From NCBI GenBank assembly GCA_905250025.1, contig CAJNOJ010000001.1, forward strand, positions 1,054,001-1,118,000: a stretch of DNA of 64,000 nt. The letters are read 5' to 3'. How positions within the stretch are numbered: position 1 is the first letter of the stretch; each line of letters opens with the position of its first letter. The notes under the pieces are model-generated. The model saw only the letters and a program-made list of their open reading frames with translations, was not told where the DNA came from and did not search any database. This DNA is from Adineta ricciae. Taxonomy: Eukaryota > Rotifera > Eurotatoria > Adinetida > Adinetidae. Below, in pieces: positions 42,782 to 56,595 of this stretch. Made by a program: the position numbers and the translations under genes.

Positions 42782-44941
42782 ATGCCAGGTGAAAGCGATA
42801 ATCAAGCAACGTTAAACGGTAAATAAAAATATTTGTGTAGATTTAGTTGTTGAACGAAAAAAAGAAACGAATGGATTGGATGTCAATATCATAGTTAAAC
42901 AATGGATTATAGACGACTGACAGGGTATCTGTTAGCTACGCTTCTTCTCTAGCTATTAGGATATTACATATTGAAACGATCTTCTTACCATTGAAACTCA
43001 ATGGATATAAAAGGTCGTAATCCGATAAATAATCGTCTTTCTTTACCGTCTACATTACGCGATGAACATATGGCCTTCTCAATTGTTATTATTTCGCATC
43101 AAACGATGATAGAACAGTCTCCTGTTAGACATATATATATATATAAGCGTGTCTGTAAAATAGCTCACGTCTTCGCCCATCAAATTATTGATAAATCATT
43201 CAATTTTGAACCTACTCTCTTTTCACTATTTATTGCACCAATCCAATGGGTTAACCTTTGAATATTCTCAGTAGAACTGTTGGCGTGTCTTGCCTGTTGT
43301 GAGAAACGTTCCTATACCGAGAAAAAAATCAGGTTCAAGTATGTTCTTTACATTTGGCCTCCAATGCTTTCGTTTAAGACGTGTACACAATTTTCCGCTC
43401 TCTCTAATCTCAATAGGATTAAATAACGAGCATAGTCCTCACCGAGAAGTGAGCAATTATTTTTAGAGGATTTCACTATAAACGAGCTCTGAGATTGTAA
43501 TTCTTGGAGAGTTCTAGCGGATCTGTCCTTTTCTAGCTATTTTCATGGCATCATCCATATCCAAGGATAGATGACTAGGATCTCTGCAGATAATTAATGA
43601 TGTCATTCGATATTTAGATCGTCCTTCGGTAACAACATTATTGAATTCGCCTGAATTTTATACTGAATTAAACAATTTATTGATCAGTGACGGAAATAAA
43701 GAATCACTTGAAACACTTTCGAACTTACTTCTACCAATTACTAAGCTTGACGCAACAGTTTGTAAAGGTAAATGAAATGTTGTTCAGGAAGGAAGAACTA
43801 CAATACAAACTTGTACTTCTAGGTCCTGTTTTGCCCGTTAATGATATACGAGGTATCGATAGCCGTTCGTATTCTAAAAATGAACGCTATTTACGATGTA
43901 AATTAGCATCGTTGTATCGTGTTATTGATCTTTATGGTTGGAATTATGGTACATGTTATAATCATGTTTCTGTAAGATTCGCTTTTGATACAAACTCGTC
44001 TAGACATTTCGTGCTTCTCTTAGGTCCGTGTGAATAATAGTACAGATCAATTTCTTACTAAACCGAATGGCTTAGCTTTTCATGAAGTGACTGGTTCGTC
44101 GCTGGTGAAAGTTGACTCAAATGGTAAAAACTTGCCAGCAGTTAATGAAAAGAACACATTTTGTTCTTTCTAGGCTCAAAGATTGATCCCGGTAGCACGA
44201 CGTTCGGTGTTAATGCACTTAGTTTTTCGTTATACGCATCTGTTTATAAACATCGTCCAGATATCAATTGTATTATTCATGTTCAGACGCCAGCTGTTGC
44301 AGCTGTCGCTGCCATGAAATGTGGTTTCCTTGCACTTTGTCAAGAAGCACTCATCTGTGGTCCAGCAACTAGTCATGAAATACAGATCGACTTAGATACC
44401 AATCGTTTGTCGGTCGATGAGGGTGTTCAAAAATCAACGGCCAAAATCCTTATCCTTCCTAACCATGGCATACTAGCTTGTGGAGCAAATATCGAAGAAG
44501 CGTGGCATATAACATTTCATCTTATTTTGGCATGCGAATCACAACTACGAGCAGTTGCAATGGGCATTGATAATTTGATTATTTCTTCAGATCAAGCTGC
44601 GAAACAGGTAAATGTCAATACCTTGTAATTGTGTGAGAGAGTTCTTCTTTGACAAATTTTAGGTAACAAATACTGTTGCTGCAGGTGGCGGTGGAGTTAA
44701 TACAACAGATGTCAAATGGGCTATCGGCGAACTCGAATGGTCAACATTAATGGTTGTTTTAGATAGGGCAGTATGTATCTATTTTGTTTTCGAATTGCTC
44801 ACGCCATCAGATGGAGTCGAAATAATACATTGACTCGCTTAGCGAGAAGAAATATCCAACTGCATTGTTTGTTCATTTTAGGGTTATCATACTGGTTACA
44901 TCTATCGTGAACCTTTAATTCGCTTTATTGACAAACAATAA
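42782..44941 (+). CDS. Adducin-like protein with class II aldolase head only
   Basis: Seven exons, 358 residues: 42782-42818, 43579-43767, 43823-43971, 44024-44123, 44174-44607, 44663-44770 and 44882-44941, all in phase; intron 1 is 760 nt. It is a paralogue of the adducin gene that follows on the same strand: both have VNDIRGIDS-type, [40 protein letters not shown] and TPAVAAVAAMKCG segments. It ends (GYIYREPLIRFIDKQ) at the head-neck border, so it lacks the neck, the flexible tail and the MARCKS-like domain needed for spectrin-actin capping. The HxH of the aldolase fold reads HVQTP here, HLHTP in the full copy. It is probably a tandem duplicate with a changed role. Confidence 0.86.
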
Positions 44942-45200: not shown

Positions 45201-48200
45201 ATGCCTATAGCAACAAACGGTGCACATATTGGATCGCCTGTCAAGAATCAATCTTACAATCAAGATGTCGACGATGATCGTCGAGAACTTGACCGACCAG
45301 CTGATGTCGTCGAAGATATGCGACAAATGGGCCAACGACAACGTGTCAAAACAATCCTCAATTCAAGAGAATTTCGTGACGAACTCGAAGCGATTATCAC
45401 CGACGCATTGAAACATGGTCCACATCCCGCATCGTTGATCGCGTTACAACAAATCTCCGAACTATTATTACCACACACATCGCGTTGGACAACCGTTTCT
45501 TCATTATCGCGTGCAGGTGGATCTGTTATTGTGCCAATCAATGACATACGTGGTGTAGACTCACAGGGGTACTCGAAAAGTGAACGTTTACTTCGTTGTA
45601 AACTAGCATCACTTTACCGTCTCGTTGATCTTTTCGGATGGTCACAAGGCATTTACAATCATATAACGGTTTGTTTTCGCGAAATGAAATAGTGTTTGTA
45701 GCTAATTTGCATGTTGTAATGTATTTCTAGGCTCGTGTCAATCAAGAGCAGGAACATTTCTTAATTAATCCATTTGGTTTAATGTATCACGAAGTAACAG
45801 GCTCAAGTTTAGTCAAAGTTGACATTGCTGGTAAGTGATCATAGATAATTCAACACATCTGTGATATTCTTATTTCTATTCCTATTTTTTTCCTTAGGTA
45901 ATGTCATTGATTCGGGCAGCACAACGTATGGAATAAATCGCGCAGGTTTTACACTTCATTCGGCTATTCACAAAGCACGACCGGATATAAAATGTATTAT
46001 TCATTTACACACACCAGCCGTTGCTGCTGTTTCTGCAATGAAATGTGGACTGTTACCATTATCACAGGATGCTTTATTTTGCGGTAAAATCTCCTATCAT
46101 GATTACCGTGGCATCTTGATCGAAGACGATGTTAAGAAACTTCTTGTGGAAGACTTAGGTCCAATCAATAAGGTTATGATCTTACGTAATCATGGATTTG
46201 TTGCATGTGGTGAAACGATTGAAGAAGCTTGGAAATACGCTTACAATGTTATAAATGCTTGCGAAGTTCAAGTTCGTGCCGCACCCATCGGTATTGATCA
46301 GTTGTACTTACCATCGAGTGAACAACAGAAACGGGTGAGATGCGTTTTGAGTTTCAGTTCAACAAGTAATAGAAGCTTTCTTTTTCTTTATCCGGTAGAT
46401 ATCCGATGTACTCCAAGGCAATTTAAATGAAGCAACTGGAGATAAAAAATGGAAAATAGGTGAATTAGAATTCGAAAGCTTGATGCGCATCTTGGATAAT
46501 GCTGGCTTCCGTACGGGTTATGTTTACCGTCAGCCGTTGATTCGTACAATTGATAAAACAACAACATTCAAAGATATCGAGGTTCCACCGGCTGCTTCGT
46601 CGGCGACAACATTTGTCGAACAACTACTTCCCGAAGCTTAGTAAGTCTTTTCGAAGAAAAATGCTCTGAGTTCGAACTGCATCTTCTGATTTAGTTCACC
46701 AACACGTCAAGCTCAACGTACAACTGAATGGCGTAATTCACCAAATGCTTATTTACGACAAGAAGTAGAAGAAACAGGAACACCCAATCCAAAGAAGGTT
46801 ACTAAGGTAAATCAATCATCGATGTTTATTCAAATCCATATAATCAATGAGAATACACGAAAGTTGTGCTTTGATAGATAAATCTAATACACAAGTGAGT
46901 TCTCCATTCACTGACACGCAGCTCTACCCGCTAGTCTAACAACATATGAGATTTCAATAGCTTCGAATATGTTAATAATCACCCATATGATTTTGAAAAG
47001 TTATTTTCATGAACGGACACATCAGAATCGATATTGTAACAGCAAACAGTAAAGAAGCGGTGCTTTGCTAATGCTTCTTAAACAAATCTATGCTCTCAAT
47101 ACCGGAATGCGACTTTCCCAGTTGATTTACTACATTGATGAATTCTTAACTTTAGTGGGTACCGGACACGGGCTTGAAACATTCAACTCCAATAAAAATT
47201 GATACAAAACATCAATTTGCTCCAAGTAACGTCGATCCCAAAGAATTGAAGAGTCATCAGAAACAAATAAAAGAAGATCGCTTCAATGAAAAAGTCTCTG
47301 CTGGTTATCAATCGAAACTTCTTGACAATGGCGCTTGGGACGATGCTACACAAACAAAAGTGAGAAAGAAGATGTTTCCGGTAATACCACAATTCGTTCT
47401 TGATTACTTAGGATCCTCATCAACCATCAACGGAAGCTGTCATTGTTGTCGGTGCAGCATCGAAAGGTATCATAAAACGTGATCAACAAAACAATGCTGT
47501 CGTTTACAAAACTTATTACGCTCAAAATCCATTTGCTCACATGGACGATCAAGAAATCGAAAAATACAAACGAGAAGTTGAACAAAACCAAATGCGTGAA
47601 CAAGGTATGTTTAAGCAAGATTAACTCGAGTTTGCAAATCTTTTCTTCGTTCAGCATTTAAGAAGAATGCACTCTTGGATGACATTCGAAAGGGTATACA
47701 CTAAACGCTTCAACTTTTCGCTGAAATGCAATCATCGATTTTGCTACTATTTTATGTTCGTTAGGAGGCAAAAAGTTACAAACAAAATCGCCTAGTATAA
47801 CTCACACCGGTGTGCAGCCGATTTATTCTTTTCTTGCTTGGAGTTAATAAGCATGCTTGTATATTTTCCTTACCTGCACAGCTAATAAGCGCCAGAGAGA
47901 TTTTCTCAAACGTCATAATAACCGAGAGCCTTGTTCGTGTATATACACGGATTGATTGATAGATTTTACTTGAGGATAGTTGCTAAAACTATCGAATACT
48001 AATTGGAAAAAGAATCCATTGAAAAGGAACTGATTGCAGTGAAAAAACAGACTTATAACTCAGATTGACCATCTTAGTTCACATATTTGAATACACACGA
48101 ATCTTTTGTTTCATTCCGCACGATTTTTTGCTTATACAAAGCCTGCTAATCATAACTTGTTCTCAAGTCGCCTTGATATACGTTTATCTCTTCCCCATAG

Positions 48201-51200
48201 CCACGATTTTGTAAAGAAATATTTCCTTTGAAATCTGATCATATCTCCAATCTCCTATTTGATTTTTTTTCAAAAGCATGGGTTCAATTGTCAACAGCAG
48301 CACTCAACTAATCTGAATTTATTTATTTTGTAGGAGGTGACTCGCAATATGATGATCACAATGATAGTCGAGGTAAGTATGACACGAGTCAGTTGTACTG
48401 CGTTCTCTCTCTCTCTCTGCCTGCTTTTCTGATGATTCATTGCAATTATGAATCAAACATTTTGGCACAGAAAAAGAATATATTAGGTAGTGTACAGAAC
48501 GTGATTCATTCTCTTGCGCGCCCACTTCTGTTAAGATCAACACAAGTTTTATGTCCGTTGTTCTTCACGTTTTTTTTCTCGTTTTTTTTTGTTCTTTCGC
48601 TTCTTCTTCTTCTTTTCCTCTTGTCTTTACTTAACAAAAAAAAATGTCATTTATGTTACCGGCACCCACTTTCTATGCATCAGTTTTTATGATTCATCAT
48701 TAAAAATATACTTATATTGGAATTCAATAAACATGGCAAGAACAAGTTAACAAGTATTCAATATCAACTGAAGGTAAGAACGATTCTTTCTTTTGATCAT
48801 TGCAATGAAGACTTAGTGTAGAAATAGAACGAGAATAAAAGAAAAAAAGATAATAGTGAGTGTTTCTTCGAGACTATTGACGGTCAGATAAAGTGTCAAG
48901 TACCATCTAGTTTTCATTTTTTTTTATTATTCAATTCACATACACAAATATTTAACATTAATGCGGCGTGTACGGGTAGTTTGATATGGCTTTTGAAGGT
49001 TTCCTCGATCGGGAAAATAATCCAAATATTTTGACGATTTCATAAGCAAAAAAAATAAAGAATAGGTAGAAAGAAAGAAGGAAAGAAGAAAAAAGGGTCC
49101 TAACAATTGTATTCTTTGAGTTCTAATTTTGACATGACGCTGAAAATTTTCTTTTTCTTCGTTTTCTTTTCCTTCAGTGTTATAGTGAGCGACTCACTAA
49201 TCCTGACTGTGCGTTGTGGTAGCGTTAGCATAGTAAAACGAGCGAAGAAAAAGAACATTACATGTTCTTAAAGAAAAGAAAAAGAAACCAGAGATGAAGA
49301 GGTGATGATGATTTAAATATGTCTATATACTATGAAGAGAAGATGAAGAAGAAGAAGATCCATACGTATTTAGTCAATATTCTTTTATAGTGTGAAATGC
49401 AACAACAACAGAAAAGATTTCAAACATCGTCATCGGACGATTCCTTATCTCGAGTGTTCATCCATAGTGCTGAACAAACGAGTCAACATACTTTACCGCT
49501 TAGTATTACACCTTTAACACCTGCGACAGTACGACGTACCAGTGAAACACAAACAGCTGAGAAGAACTCAACACCAAAATCTGCTCCGTCGTTTGCCGAA
49601 ACTCAGCTTTTATCTGTTTACTACCCAAGTTTAGACCCAAAGAACCCTTCAACAAACGACAAATGCATATTTGTTGAACAGCAAGATCGACAACCGATAC
49701 GTTATCGTGCTGCATATGATCCCTTATCGTCGTCAAGGTCGACGCAAACTTCCCCATCTTTATCAACCTATGGTTCAACATTGATTATCGATCGAAACCA
49801 AAGTACAGATGTTAAATACGACCAACATGTGAAAATTCATTCCGGCAGTCAGAACCTGCCAGATACTATTCATGATAAAAATGCCCTGCCTAGCGAACTG
49901 CTCGAAGAATCGAAATACTCATACGAAGAATACATAGTACATGTCGAAAGGGAACACAATCGAACACCTTCATCCTCGTCATCATCAGTGACAACGGTTA
50001 TTGCACAAAATGGGGAAGTTGACTCTGATCGTACGTCGAACTTGAGTTTTGATGTTAAAAACAATTCAAAATTAGTTACAAGTACACCAATCAAAGAAGA
50101 AAATAAACGAGTATCTAGTTGGCCACCTGTACCAGATGATATCATATCATTGGATGTTCAGTATGAGAACGACGAAGCGAAACGTTCAGGACGTGTGCAG
50201 TTCGCTGAACAACTAATTCACGTTATACCACCATCGACAACAACTAGTTTAAGTGATGAGTCAATAACGCCACCTGCAATCATCCCACGAACAAATATTA
50301 AAGAGCAAACGAAATCAGTCAATACTGATCCTCAACCTGTTGAAGATCAACTGCAAAGACAAGATTATCGACCTATGAATCAATCGAAGTGGGTTAAAAC
50401 ACAGTTGGATCAGTCCGAGACGCAAACAAATACGACATCGCATCGAGTCGATACCTTACGTTCAATGTTCGAGCGACAGAATTCGCGCTCATCGGATTCA
50501 TCAACAATCAGCAGTCCAACTAGTCAAAGTCGACGAAAAGAACCTGATGAACGGCCATCACGTCAAGGAGACGAGATCCGATTTCGTGTTAAAGATAAGA
50601 ATTCGTCCGGCATTCATCACGCTGAACCAGCCAAAATTATTCAATACACAATAACTCCATCGGCAATTAACAACCAATTGGATTTACTTCCACTACATCA
50701 AATACGTCAGATTACTGGTAAACAATTGAAAAGCCTTGACGATGCCGGACATTATTTACAGGTAAAACTCCTCTTCTTTTTCCCTTCTATTGAGAAAAGT
50801 GATTCGAAAATGCAATTGTAACATGTTGTTAGGCAATTAATAGATTTCTAAATAATTAAATCCAGTTGAGTCGAACCTTTTGCTTTAATGGTTAGAAGAA
50901 GAGAAAAAAAATCAACCACTGAGAAGCCATTGACATATTTCTTTTCAAATCAACTACACCATCTGGCATCTCAACAAGAAAATTCCAGTCTCCTATTGAG
51001 CGCTCGTTTGCTTCTCGTCTCTAACGTATTTTTTTTACGCATCATAGGATGGTTATACTTGGCAATGGAATGAAATCTTTTGGTTAAGTTTAACAACGTC
51101 TCAGCGTGATCAATTGAAAGAGCTCGAACGTCAATTAACTATTCGTCCACGTAGCGCCGAACAGACATTAGCTTCAAACGATTCCGAACTCTCATCAGTA

Positions 51201-54200
51201 TCATCCAATGAAACAAAACGTTACAAATCAACTATTAATATAACTGCAGCTGGTTCGTGGCAACTACAAAAGCCAACAGCAGCTCCCTCGGGGATAACGA
51301 AGTATACAGAAACGAGTACTATACATGAAAGTCAGCCGACAGTAAGCGTCTTCGGCTCAGCACCGAATTCGACTTCATCGAAAGTTGGCTCGCAAGAATC
51401 GATTACTTCTTCAAGTGCTCAACAGCAAGTATTGGCATCGAATAAGCGAACTGATAGTCAACTTACAATTATCGAGTCGGGTTATGGTTCAGCAGATGAT
51501 CAACAACGTTTTAGACCGAACTCCAGCACAATCATCGAAGAACCGCCTGCTGCACAACAGGTTGGCAACAATATTCGAACGAATCTGCCGCCAAAACAAC
51601 CGAAATTAGATCCATTAAGCTATGAACAATTCGTCAATGATTATCTATCAACTTATGCGAGATCAACACGTTCGACCGACGGAACATTACTTCTTTCCAT
51701 TGATGATCAGCAGATTCATCTTCCACACATTCGGTTTTCTTCGTCGAACCAAACAATCATTCATTCCGATGCTATCGACAAAGCTCTTTCACCATTCGAA
51801 ACTGAATCCAATGAGTTAGTTATATTCGTCTATGGAACAATTATTAACATTCCAGCTGATCGATGGCTCATCCATCGTAATAAATATAGTCACACTCGAT
51901 GGGTTCAGAACTTAAAGCGTGTCAATCGAAATCTTCCGCTAAAGGTCATACCCTTCATCGATCAATGGCTTTTGAACCATAGCACGCTCTCTATTGACAC
52001 CCATGAACTTAACATCGATGGATTAATCATTCCATATCTCGACCGACTAGATTCACATCAGATTCGACAATTTCAAACCAATTCATCGAATGAAACGTTC
52101 AACTATCTAATGCGAACGGGTTTTATCTCTTATGATGAGGATCAAACATTGATCCATATCGGTAATAGTGAACTTGATGCTCACCGTCTTTTCACATCTT
52201 CGTCGGCAGAGTTCGTTGAGCGAGTAACAAACGCTCTTCGTTCATTAACTAACATTCAATTCAACAATGAAAACAGTTCTTTAATCTTGGCAGATGATTT
52301 CATTATTCCCCATGAATATCTGTCCAATCTGCTCAGTCAAATCGAACATGGAGGAACTTTAAATGCTCATGAATTAGCGCAATTTTTGTGCGAAATTTGT
52401 CAAATCGAAGAGGACGAAAACGATCGGTCGCTGATTCTCACATTTGGAAAACAGATTTTACGTATGAAAACATCCGATGATAATCACGTACAAATCTTAT
52501 CTCAATGGTTGGAACAACTCAATTATCAAAGACAAATTCATATCAACGAAGAAAACGATGTTATTATCTATCCCAGTCGTCCTCATCAGCAAATCTTCAT
52601 TAAACATGAATACGTCGAAGAATACATGATAGGCAAGGCTGGTTTAACTCATATCTCGATGAACGACCTTGCAAATATTTTACTTTTCTACAATTTCGTT
52701 CAATATTCATCGGGGCAGCTAATATTTCCTGACCAGCAAATCGTCGTGGACACCAATCAATTAACCTGGTTACAATCGATCATCCAATCGATTCGTGTGC
52801 ACGACAATACAAAAGAAACCGAAGTCGAGCTTTTCGATGGGCAGCACACACAAAACCTTCGAATTCCATACGAATACATGCTTCCGACTGATCAGCCGCA
52901 ACTAGTGGCAAGTTATTTACTTCAAAATGGAAATATCCGCTTTGAAGTGAACACAGGAAACTATGAATACGTCTACGCACGACCTGAAGAAAAAGTCCTT
53001 TCGGTTGATCGTGAAAATATCGACTCCATTCGCGAAAATCTTATTGATGATTTTGTTGAATATGTCAACAATCAAGATGGAGTTCATTACGATAATACAA
53101 AGAATTCGCTAGTACTGCAAAATTTATCGAACGGTTCAAGACTATACTTAACTCCTGAACACACACAATTCATTAAGGAAAACCAATACCGACGACAAGA
53201 TATGAAATATATTTTGAAAAAACATGCTCAATTGAAACGCAATGAGTCGAATCAATGGATCATGTACTACAATAATCAATCCATACCTATTTCAATCGAT
53301 GAAAATGTTCTAAGTAATCTCTCACAACAAACTCCGAACGATTTACTGCGCCGCTACCATGCAACGATTGAATATATGTACAATCATGGCTTAATTACAT
53401 GTAACAAACCATTGAAATTAGTTCGTTTGCAATGCACCAATGAAATTCTGACTATCCCAACGGATTTCCTACGTTCAATATTAAATACCAAAATTTTTCA
53501 TTCGTCTAACGACGACATACTTCCGTTTACTAGTCAAGAGTTATCTCAATGGTTATTAGACCATTCCAGTAACATTAGTCGATCATTACAAGATTTCATT
53601 CAAATCACATACCGAAATCGCCTGTATCATTTGCCATTGATCTCGTCGAACACTGAAGATGAAGATCGAAAGTTAGAACTACTATTTCCATTCAATACCT
53701 CCTTACGTTTGCTACAGAAAACTCCGTCAACAACAACGTTAGACATTCAACAGCCCGATGAAACAAATGATTATGCGATCGACCCATTATTAATCTTGGC
53801 GAATTACGTTCATCGTGCGGGAACGATCTACCAAGACCAATTAGGTCGGTTGGTGATTAAATTAGACACGAACGAAATAGTCATACCTCGTGCGGACGCT
53901 GCTAGTGCTATCGAATCGATTAATACTTCACCACAACGAACTGGTACGATCATTGCACGTTTAATACATCGCATAGGCAAAGTCCAGTCAAATCAGTTGG
54001 GTGGACTGACCATTACCGTTGGTAAAAAGTCGATTGACATTTCGCAAGAATCGATCAATCGTACCAGTACCAATGACTCATCTTTACATGCTCAAAACTC
54101 CAAATCAGCACGCAAGTCCTCAAACCTACCTGTCTTACAACAGTCAAAATCAGCGAATAATTTATCGTCATTCTCTGATGATCAACAAATCCTCTCCACC

Positions 54201-55820
54201 AAAGATAAACGAACTGATATAAAACATCTACCTACTATTCAACAGGATAGAACGATGAGTAATCCGACCCAAACATCTCGGCAATTAAAACCACGTATAA
54301 TTATTATACCTGATAATGATTCGAATGCTACTTCGAATCGTGCGACACGTTTCTACGTTCAACATACATCTGAATCGAACTCGACGGTGAATATAAATTC
54401 CAATTCCATCCAACAGACACAACCGCAATTGATTACTCCACAATCATTTCGTGATGCAACGCTTCGAGATGCTCCAGTCTTCGTTCGGCAACAAGGCCGA
54501 GAGATTCACTATGAGAATCTCGCGCACTATTTAACAACAGAACAAGTTGAATTGGCATCACATACCGTTCGTCATATGTTGAAATTCTCATCTGATGACG
54601 AGTATTTTGCTTATTTGAACAAGAAAATGTCATCTAGCTATGCGAACCAACTTGTCCGAGAAAGTGAAGAGAAACCTCGTCGATCATCGTCATCTTCTCA
54701 CCTGATCGATCGACAAACGAGAGCATCGAACGAGAATCTTGTTCGAGATCGCTCGAAATCACCAGGCAATTCATATAACGTTCAAAATGGCACTGCAAGA
54801 CGGGAAAGATCTCGATATCCTGAACGAGATCAGCGCTATGCATTCGATCGCAGTCTATCATCCTCGAGTTTAAATTCTGGAATGTTAATTGCGAACACGT
54901 TCCCATCATCTTAAACTATTCCTCGCTCGCTATTATTCATTGTGATTTTCATGTTCTTTTTTGTATTATACTTTTCTATTTCTATCATTTCTATATCTAC
55001 TTTGAGCAACACAGAGAGAGAGAGAACGCCACGTTTTTATTTCATTGAAATGTATCTTATGAATATCTATTGAATTTTTAGGTCGATCACCGTTGACAAC
55101 GAGCACAGGTGGTCATAGTTTAACAACTCCTGATAAGAATGTGACATTGCCTCGCACTTTATCAGGACAAAGTATGTTATTTTGTTGATTGATTATTTGT
55201 TGAGCATGAATTCTGCATGTGCATGTGTTTTTTCATAGGCAATGATGGAGAGAGTGAAAGTCGTGCAACCGTTTCGCGCAGCGCTAGTGCTGCTGCAAGT
55301 ATGGATTGATTGACAAGTTTATCGCTGAATATTAAAAATACTCCGATTTTGTTTTTCTCTTTGCAGAAGTAACAAGTAAATCGGATACAATCAAATCGAC
55401 AACGTCATCATCAGCTGCATCAAGTCGAGAAGTATGTTTTCATTCAGTTTGATATCTGCTCTTAACATGTTGAAAAAGTAAACTATCGAGCCCTATTTCT
55501 CTCTGCAGCAGTCAGCTGTCGCAGCACCGGTAGGAAGAGCTCAAAGCTTGGTCAGTATATAATGATTACCCTGAATCCTCTTTTCTTGCTTCTAATGGGA
55601 CGCTGATTACCCGTTGACAGCATGGTTTTGGTTTTCAGTAGTTCGAGCCGAGTCTATCTTTCTGTTTCTCATTTAGGCTTCGCCCAATCGTACAAGTGGT
55701 AGTAAAACTGCCGACGATTCAACAAAGAAAGAAAAGAAATCGAAATTTCGTACACCGTCTTTTCTTCGAAAACGCAAAGAAAAGAAAGAAGCTGCTGGTA
55801 AAGACAAAGCTGAAAAATGA
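45201..55820 (+). CDS. ADD: Adducin, full-length with MARCKS-like tail
   Basis: Fourteen exons give 744 residues: 45201-45668, 45731-45830, 45898-46334, 46399-46640, 46695-46806, 47156-47359, 47412-47604, 47655-47693, 48334-48372, 55082-55171, 55239-55298, 55367-55431, 55509-55550 and 55677-55820. The class II aldolase head has [28 protein letters not shown] and YRQPLIRTI. The neck holds [17 protein letters not shown] and [14 protein letters not shown]. The tail is Ser/Thr-rich and ends in [20 protein letters not shown], the basic MARCKS-related domain that in vertebrates binds calmodulin and is phosphorylated by PKC. Adducin caps actin filaments and recruits spectrin at the membrane. The end at 47704 (GIH) is an alternative if 47693 is not used as donor. 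All phases fit the 6.7-kb skip from 48372 to 55082. Confidence 0.85.
49397..54914 (+). CDS. Giant tandem-repeat protein of unknown family, nested in adducin intron
   Basis: Two exons, 49397-50761 and 51048-54914, with a 286-nt intron (GTAAAA/CATAG) in phase 0, give about 1,743 residues. Residues 1-440 are Ser/Thr/Gln-rich and probably disordered, with a PP1-docking-like RVQF at 266-269. Residues ~445-640 include [28 protein letters not shown] and a Ser-rich linker. Residues ~640-1460 hold about fifteen degenerate repeats of 50-70 residues: an amphipathic helix ending in a turn, then two beta strands with an I-x-I-P-like end. The C-terminus is Ser/Arg-rich and basic. No signal peptide, membrane helix or enzyme motif was seen. 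I recognise no family. It may be an independent gene, or an alternative adducin isoform. The upstream phase-1 adducin exon cannot join directly at 49391, where TGA would follow. Confidence 0.75.
51606..54050 (+). repeat. Coding array of ~15 degenerate helix-plus-hairpin repeats
   Basis: Units share the plan: hydrophobic helix (e.g. [34 protein letters not shown], [25 protein letters not shown]), then a polar turn, then strand L-x-I, a short turn, and I-x-I-P ([40 protein letters not shown]). Spacing is irregular, 50-80 residues. The last two units are the most alike ([19 protein letters not shown] and [19 protein letters not shown]), which suggests recent duplication there. Confidence 0.65.
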
Positions 55821-56595
55821 ACAGGAAAAACTTCGCTCATTATCATCTAGTGTTGTCGTGTTGTTCCTTTCTTTTGTTTGTTTTTTTGTAGACAACTCGT
55901 TTTTTCTCTCTTCTCTCGAGATACTCATTCGTATATAATACCCGCATTTTTCTCGTTTGTGTGTAGCTCTCGGCTTTCATTGTCGTGTGCGTGTGTGTGT
56001 GTTCAATCTTAATGCATCTATTGATCTCTACTGTAGCAAAAGAAGGTTTGATTGAAAGAAGAAGAAGAAGAGAATTGTATTGATTTTTTTTCTTTTTTCC
56101 TTACGTTTTCCTTTTTCTGTTCGATTTACTTAGTTTCTTCTGTTTCCATCGAAGAAAATTCAATTGCTTTGTGTCCTTGTATTAATACTCTTCTTTTGCT
56201 TTCTCTTTTCTGTTTTTCTTTTGTGAGTTGAACTCATTCAGTTTGTTTCCCTTTGTTTCGTTTCTTACAATGATAGCGCGCGTGAGTTTAGACGCACACA
56301 CACAAATCATCTTTGGTATAATAAACATATGTACACATTACCTAGAATAGCGTGAGCAACACTAAAACAAAATTGAAAACATTCATGTGCATCTCTACTT
56401 GGATCAAAGGTCAGGAAATACTCCAGATCGGAAAAACAACGATTATCTTATCTGTACGATATGTCACATGAGGAAAACAAATGATCGATTTAACAGCAGA
56501 GAATAGCAAGAAACCGTGCTTTTATTCATCAATCAAACCGAATACACTAGTTGAACTACGAGAGTAAAATATGCGAGAGCAGAATAGAAAACTGT
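55821..56595. other. Convergent spacer, low-complexity
   Basis: 3' flanks of adducin (plus) and the SelP-like gene (minus). It contains pyrimidine-rich tracts and a GAA run near 56059-56073. Nothing else was seen. Confidence 0.5.

Follow-up and report, generated by a model that had tools for sequence, protein, structure and literature searches.

An intron of the adducin gene of Adineta ricciae contains a second, complete coding sequence on the same strand (49397-50761 joined to 51048-54914, +), which encodes a protein of 1,743 residues and which we hold, with near certainty, to be a gene. Positions refer to the window, the whole 64,000-nucleotide stretch of contig CAJNOJ010000001.1 that was analysed (Table 1). 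At a probability of roughly 55%, we read the nested gene as independently started, probably spliced-leader trans-spliced, and encoding a giant scaffold paired by the dynein light chain LC8. We infer the expression of the gene, the LC8 binding of its product and the product's function. The protein belongs to an uncharacterised giant repeat-protein family of Adineta and Rotaria, and our searches turned up no catalogued relative of this family.

Table 1. Features of the nested gene and of its adducin host, with positions in the window.
Feature	Position	Strand	Remarks
Adducin host gene	45201..55820	+	13 coding exons, 737 aa; one open frame joined on splice signals
Host intron	48373..55081	+	phase 1, 6,709 bases; contains the entire nested gene
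Candidate 3' splice site	49176..49177	+	2nd of 320 AG
Second candidate 3' splice site	49389..49390	+	4th of 320 AG; six bases 5' of nested start codon
Nested coding exon 1	49397..50761	+	455 codons, open
TQT motif 1, LC8-type	49547..49555	+	residues 51-53; identical in 14/14 N-termini (window and 13 relatives); also in C6
TQT motif 2, LC8-type	49742..49750	+	residues 116-118; 13/14, missing in P0028; also in C6
RVQF	50192..50203	+	residues 266-269; strict [RK]VxF in 10/14 N-termini; also in C6
Nested intron	50762..51047	+	phase 0, GT..AG
Nested coding exon 2	51048..54914	+	1,288 codons and stop, open
Array of 16 helix-plus-three-strand units	51612..54053	+	AlphaFold2 model and unit self-similarity
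Units 15 and 16	53778..54053	+	AlphaFold2 on 53757-54080 alone: mean pLDDT 88.5, pTM 0.80
Own C-terminus of nested protein (18 residues)	54858..54911	+	recurs in relatives
Weak donor	54868..54869	+	matches join in public A. ricciae model; 56th of 297 GT, score 2.7
Adducin tail exons	55082-55171, 55239-55298, 55367-55431, 55677-55820	+	carried by six public nested-protein models
Optional extra adducin exon	55509-55550	+	keeps frame

A gene inside an adducin intron

The two exons put forward in the preliminary description are both open, with GT..AG between them, and the host intron reaches an open frame of 1,288 codons, its longest, whereas 300 mononucleotide shuffles gave 165 at most. Together with the conservation and dN/dS values given below, this argues against the view that a long intron here carries a fortuitous or decayed frame, to which we give practically no weight. 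Splice sites in the host-intron interval were scored with a matrix of 11 sites, the host donor and acceptor each being left out of its own matrix. The donor of the nested intron ranks 4th of 297 GT and its acceptor (51047) 50th of 320 AG; we accept the join despite this poor acceptor because relatives such as P0026 run through the junction and the paralogue on contig C6 has a 71-base intron at the same place.

The nesting itself, in a phase-1 intron and on the same strand, is as that description had proposed. Adducin is complete around the nested gene, its best relatives carry Pfam PF00596, and at its C-terminus is a MARCKS-like tail (16 residues). Head exon 48334-48372 is followed, in phase 1, by the top-ranked donor of the interval (48373, 1st of 297); this phase fits the tail acceptor, which is in turn the best of its kind (55081, 1st of 320). 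An AATAAA lies at 56320, 3' of the adducin stop, and an Rfam scan of the window gave no match at gathering score.

Between the window and C6, dN/dS is about 0.20 for exon 1 and about 0.14 for exon 2, with dS saturated in both; the two copies of a stand-alone 548-codon relative give a dN/dS of 0.105 at a dS of 0.164. On these comparisons, coding change in the nested gene is constrained. The protein starts are alike in those relatives whose models reach the N-terminus, and the protein's own C-terminus is recognisable by eye in 13 of the 16 relatives with their own stop (P0011, P0012 and P0021 end earlier). The gene's own start and stop are under selection, given their recurrence and a dN/dS of 0.14-0.20 at saturated dS. 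Relatives were also checked for frameshifts, and those in other bdelloids are intact proteins.

The family has further loci in the A. ricciae genome. The C6 paralogue is longer. On the same strand, it follows a second adducin head at the matching intron position, within a collinear segment, and its frame can be read as far as a single N (834418). No second adducin tail was found for it at E up to 1, so that nesting there is half seen, and the absent tail side may reflect a deletion or an assembly gap. Contigs of equal size tie nested and adducin models together in Rotaria sp. Silwood1 (P0009, P0044) and R. sordida (P0011, P0036). Because C6 is placed collinearly and Rotaria models of the C6-type paralogue carry the adducin tail, the sequences suggest that the nesting predates bdelloid tetraploidy and has apparently been kept in place since. 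Same-strand nested intronic genes, complete within the host intron, are known in animals. The present gene is likewise complete inside its host intron; it differs from them in its unusually large product, in having a paralogue similarly placed at a second adducin locus, and in its occurrence in a lineage with spliced-leader trans-splicing.

The 5' end and entry from the adducin head

According to PMC1925144, the spliced leader is found on more than 50% of bdelloid transcripts. The genome holds 41 copies of the spliced-leader exon, against 0 for the control, and GTAAA directly follows the exon in all seven lines listed (five distinct copies). An acceptor-like site lies directly 5' of the start codon in both paralogues (window and C6), compared with 94 of the 1,331 ATGs on the window's plus strand. 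No such site precedes the ATG of the stand-alone relatives on C99 and C249. The candidate at 49177 shows a weak alignment to the acceptor immediately preceding the C6 start codon (77% over 43 columns, E 0.006), amid many pyrimidine-rich chance matches. In our preferred reading, the 5' end of the nested mRNA would be made at a 3' splice site lying before the start codon, with spliced-leader trans-splicing as the likeliest mechanism; this would release the mRNA either from the adducin transcript or from a separate one initiated within the intron.

Entered from the adducin head at the two acceptors that were read, 49390 and 49177, the nested frame is closed at once: a stop is the second codon when the head is joined to 49391, and the third when it is joined to 49178. 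Searches for relatives, to which length limits apply, found no model fusing the adducin head to the nested protein. The preliminary description had drawn a parallel with Drosophila hts, which holds insofar as an adducin locus there too gives a second cytoskeletal protein part, and is otherwise loose. The extra part of Ovhts comes after the adducin head, in one polyprotein, whereas the nested gene has its own start, stops when entered from the head at either candidate acceptor, and could share only its 3' end. Ovhts is described as having an RC domain and undergoing cleavage in PMC4265757 and in the title of Petrella et al. 2007, which it cites.

The 3' end and the adducin tail

None of 13 poly-A hexamers tried occurs in the 167 bases from the nested stop to the host acceptor, and six public nested-protein models from five species (P0003, P0004, P0009, P0010, P0029 and P0030) end with the adducin MARCKS-like tail. 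Both observations favour a possible, though less probable, alternative in which the nested unit is an alternative adducin head whose transcript continues into the tail exons; these would serve as 3' UTR or be spliced on, and in the latter case the giant protein would gain the tail. So does the lack of the tail in all 21 bdelloid-like adducin rows (P0032-P0052). For two of the five species, A. ricciae and R. magnacalcarata, the 2018 annotation made use of RNA-seq (PMC5916493), which may have informed these models. Against a shared 3' end, five distinct join positions occur among the six models (P0029 equals P0030; P0003 and P0004 lie two residues apart), the window donor that matches one of them is weak, although its T at +3 is also found in one accepted adducin donor, and the C-terminus beyond that donor is the one recurring in most own-stop relatives. 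The host donor and acceptor, moreover, are the best pair of the interval. Gene finders unable to nest genes would produce mis-joins of this kind, and the tail-less adducin models end differently between species. We consider the tail-bearing models to be mainly mis-joined annotation and keep the shared 3' end as an alternative; the joined tail was dropped as proof of a fusion protein, since the joins mostly differ and cut off the recurring C-terminus. Should a shared 3' end be real, the locus would offer a direct test of how trans-splicing permits a gene to reside within another.

The same tail-less rows would also fit a permanently tail-less bdelloid adducin, with the tail exons serving the nested gene only. 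No head-plus-tail bdelloid adducin appears in the best 120 of the 5,200 matches listed, nor does any adducin model named A. ricciae or A. vaga. We nevertheless find such a capture of the tail very improbable, considering the strong phase-1 donor of the head exon, which fits the tail acceptor, and the species-dependent ends of the tail-less models, 3 of the 21 of which are partial. A recurrent annotation fault is likely, by which the bdelloid adducin models examined stand without their regulatory tail and the tail is assigned to an orphan protein.

The encoded protein and its relatives

The core of the protein is a degenerate array whose repeat nature is above chance, with an hhalign probability of at least 10 in 23 of 120 unit pairs against 1 of 120 after column shuffling. 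The earlier count of about fifteen helix-plus-hairpin repeats is refined by AlphaFold2 to 16 units, each with one helix and three strands, with unit borders drawn by the analyst on the model (825 aa, mean pLDDT 74.5); its pTM is low (0.33), and hence the packing of units cannot be read from it.

That the array cannot be placed in a known family is borne out by the searches. Pfam gave no family for exon 2 at E up to 10 and one for exon 1, below its curated cut-off; in a comparison of 27 array members, matches at E up to 0.1 (best 0.0025) involved 13 families, each reached by one or two members, in a table that shows no curated cut-offs. Profile searches of the PDB gave nothing better than E 0.15. 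Foldseek, run with the whole array against the PDB only and with units 15-16 against PDB and viral structures, returned weak matches with nothing in common (sliding clamps, Cre recombinase, PUR repeats and scattered viral proteins), which we do not read as kin. The lack of a match in these searches does not demonstrate a new fold.

Relatives are present in Adineta and Rotaria, and all named ones are bdelloid rotifers, a restriction that extends as far as protein searches needing shared exact words could reach; rows without an organism name (19 of 26 in one search, 7 of 14 in the other) could be other animals. Our tree comprises the window and 19 of 29 relatives, with 9 of 17 inner branches open; it leaves out P0016-P0019 and P0021, which have no anchor, and P0020, P0026-P0028 and P0031, and alignment A2 takes in 24 of the 29. 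The viral contigs searched held no relative. One genome-contig match, in a Hyphomicrobiaceae bin, sits between bacterial genes, was drawn in by the search pattern and is taken as chance.

The exon 1 product is taken as disordered, judged by eye from its composition. TQT is expected by chance at 0.16 to 0.75 per 600 residues and is the core of the LC8-binding motif according to PMC5746249; two recurring cores in this putatively disordered segment would give the nested protein the motif of an LC8 client. The LC8-binding scaffolds GKAP and ASCIZ are described as likewise carrying multiple LC8 motifs along an extended disordered segment. The nested protein differs from them in the folded array that follows, and the likeness is one of motif layout, with no sequence kinship claimed. 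LC8 dimers bound to the two motifs would pair the N-terminal halves, while the array may form a long binding surface. The nested scaffold would probably act in the cytoskeleton or at the cell cortex, the sites of adducin function, a placement suggested by the genomic neighbourhood alone.

It is tempting to go further, at rather long odds, and to see in the locus one transcription unit for two unrelated cytoskeletal proteins. Spliced-leader trans-splicing would cut the scaffold from the adducin pre-mRNA and a regulated splice could add the MARCKS-like tail, so that adducin and scaffold would be rivals for a single membrane-binding module. The array's repeat fold would be new and specific to bdelloids.

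Exon 1 also encodes an RVQF, its strict form missing in P0005, P0009, P0010 and P0011, which we take to resemble the RVxF docking motif of protein phosphatase 1.

Nested gene, host adducin and relatives

Our findings identify the two-exon frame lodged within the adducin gene as a true, conserved gene whose product is a giant repeat protein, so far uncharacterised; any function ascribed to that protein is a matter of inference. The two open frames lie exactly where the preliminary description had placed them (see table) and, joined across a GT..AG intron, encode 1,743 residues with a single terminal stop. The host intron's longest open frame spans 1,288 codons, compared with a maximum of 165 in 300 mononucleotide shuffles. 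The host adducin gene was modelled as complete, ending in a MARCKS-like tail, and the intron enclosing the nested frame is indeed of phase 1, as had been proposed. With splice-site matrices built from 11 adducin sites each and the tested site left out, the host donor ranks first among the 297 GTs in the interval and the host acceptor first among the 320 AGs; for the nested intron the donor ranks 4th and the acceptor only 50th. Among open-access papers no description of the locus was found: none was listed for bdelloid adducin, and for nested genes in bdelloid introns there was one general review.

Searched with the repeat array, a set of 5.8 billion proteins yielded 26 relatives; a profile search gave 14, three of them new. 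Rows carrying an organism name (seven of the 26 and seven of the 14) are bdelloid without exception, the remaining rows of both lists coming from jgi, lgn, ena or ncbi sources. Named relatives belong to Adineta ricciae (92% in the array), A. vaga (69%), A. steineri and Rotaria species, and in a tree A. ricciae adjoins the window sequence (95% over 348 columns). Start, exon junction and C-terminus recur among the rows that reach those parts. One relative on a 760,799-base contig, P0026, continues through the nested exon junction. Its ragged end suggests a raw frame, in which case its locus would lack the nested intron.

Features of the nested locus and its copies (window coordinates unless a contig of the same genome is named)
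Feature	Location	Details
Host adducin gene	45201-55820	13 exons, 737 aa
Host intron	48373-55081	phase 1
Nested exon 1	49397-50761	455 codons
Nested exon 2	51048-54914	1,288 codons plus stop
Candidate donor	48774	second-best of 297 in host intron; no assigned exon
Acceptor near nested start	49177	2nd of 320
Acceptor near nested start	49390	4th of 320
Tandem adducin-head-like gene	43684-44941	
Collinear segments	39427-63833; C6:853732-826102	
Break in long paralogue	C6:834418	single N
Stand-alone frame	C99:322953-324596	548 codons
Stand-alone frame	C249:92665-94308	548 codons
Spliced-leader exons (example)	C6:235175-251415	

Paralogue and stand-alone copies

Our search of the organism's own genome (130 Mb, 1,033 contigs) revealed a paralogue on contig C6 that is longer than the nested gene (exon 1, 702 codons; exon 2, 2,172 codons before it breaks off) and carries a 71-base intron at the identical position. 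A second adducin head precedes it on the same strand. Because the two segments are collinear, they are most likely ohnologous, stemming from the ancient bdelloid tetraploidy, which is considered older than the families (PMC5916493). Comparison of the window with C6 gives a dN/dS of 0.20 in exon 1 and 0.14 in exon 2, at saturated dS values of 1.9 and 2.7. The paralogue breaks off exactly at a single N, beyond which the nested gene's closing part and the adducin tail would be expected; relative to the window about 1.5 kb is absent there, tail included, and no second tail was found in the own genome. Nesting on C6 therefore shows at the head end alone; for the tail end the evidence comes from the long-type Rotaria models P0029 and P0030, which finish with the adducin tail.

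A third kind of locus is the stand-alone frame with several repeat units, adjoining a frame that by eye resembles a glutathione transferase; no adducin match occurs within 20 kb of sequence surrounding either copy. The two copies differ at a dS of 0.164 with a dN/dS of 0.105, indicating coding constraint.

Just upstream of adducin in the window lies a second, shorter adducin-head-like gene in tandem, its tail absent by eye, whose frames match only the single adducin head of the collinear C6 segment.

Repeat array and N-terminal half

About fifteen helix-plus-hairpin repeats had been described. The repeat array itself stands and its form is revised, AlphaFold2 predicting 16 units, each built of one helix and three strands. 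Self-similarity among units exceeds chance (23 of 120 pairs at a probability of at least 10, against 1 of 120 after column shuffling). The model of the array (825 aa, 27 sequences) has a mean pLDDT of 74.5 and a pTM of only 0.33; units 15-16 alone (25 sequences) reach 88.5 and 0.80. As previously judged, the array could not be placed in a known family: a Pfam search gave no family above cut-off for either window exon, and PDB sequence searches gave no match (best E 0.15). Foldseek at E up to 0.001 returned nothing in the PDB for the whole-array and units 15-16 models, and nothing among viral models for units 15-16.

The N-terminal half looks disordered, with short conserved islands. A strict RVxF, resembling the phosphatase 1 docking motif, occurs in 10 of 14 aligned N-termini. 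Two of the islands are TQT motifs, the first identical in all 14 and the second present in 13, and the C6 paralogue has both; many LC8 sites have TQT as their core (PMC5746249).

Ends of the nested gene

Six public models of the nested protein from five species (P0003, P0004, P0009, P0010, P0029 and P0030) end in the adducin tail. None of the 21 bdelloid-like adducin rows in the 120 best matches listed (19 with organism names, three of these partial) has this tail; they stop at or before the exon 48334-48372 or in species-specific read-through. For the coding join we lean towards an annotation mis-join of the two nested genes: the six joins fall at five different places; the donor needed in the window ranks 56th of 297; and the nested protein's own C-terminus beyond that donor recurs in 13 of 16 relatives with their own stop. 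The nested gene and adducin may nevertheless share a 3' end: none of 13 kinds of poly-A hexamer lies in the 167 bases 3' of the nested stop, P0029 and P0030 join at an identical place, and RNA-seq formed part of the annotation made in 2018 for A. ricciae and R. magnacalcarata (PMC5916493), although the models themselves may or may not stem from it.

At the 5' end, splicing the adducin head to the acceptor 49390 brings in a stop as the second codon, and splicing it to 49177 as the third. The C6 paralogue has an acceptor five bases upstream of its ATG, which aligns weakly with 49177 (E 0.006). Of the window's 1,331 plus-strand ATGs, 94 have by a loose rule an acceptor-like site at most 15 bases away; the same rule finds none before the ATG of the stand-alone copies. 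The spliced-leader exon occurs 41 times in the own genome (control, 0) and is followed by GTAAA in all seven lines listed, which represent five distinct copies. Given these copies, and such a leader on more than half of bdelloid transcripts (PMC1925144), trans-splicing would be the simplest way for a nested mRNA to mature; a non-coding first exon that uses the good donor 48774 may do equally well. Of the 41 places at which these exons of SL RNA genes lie, 34 stand as 17 opposed pairs, and in 14 of these the members lie about 150 bases apart.
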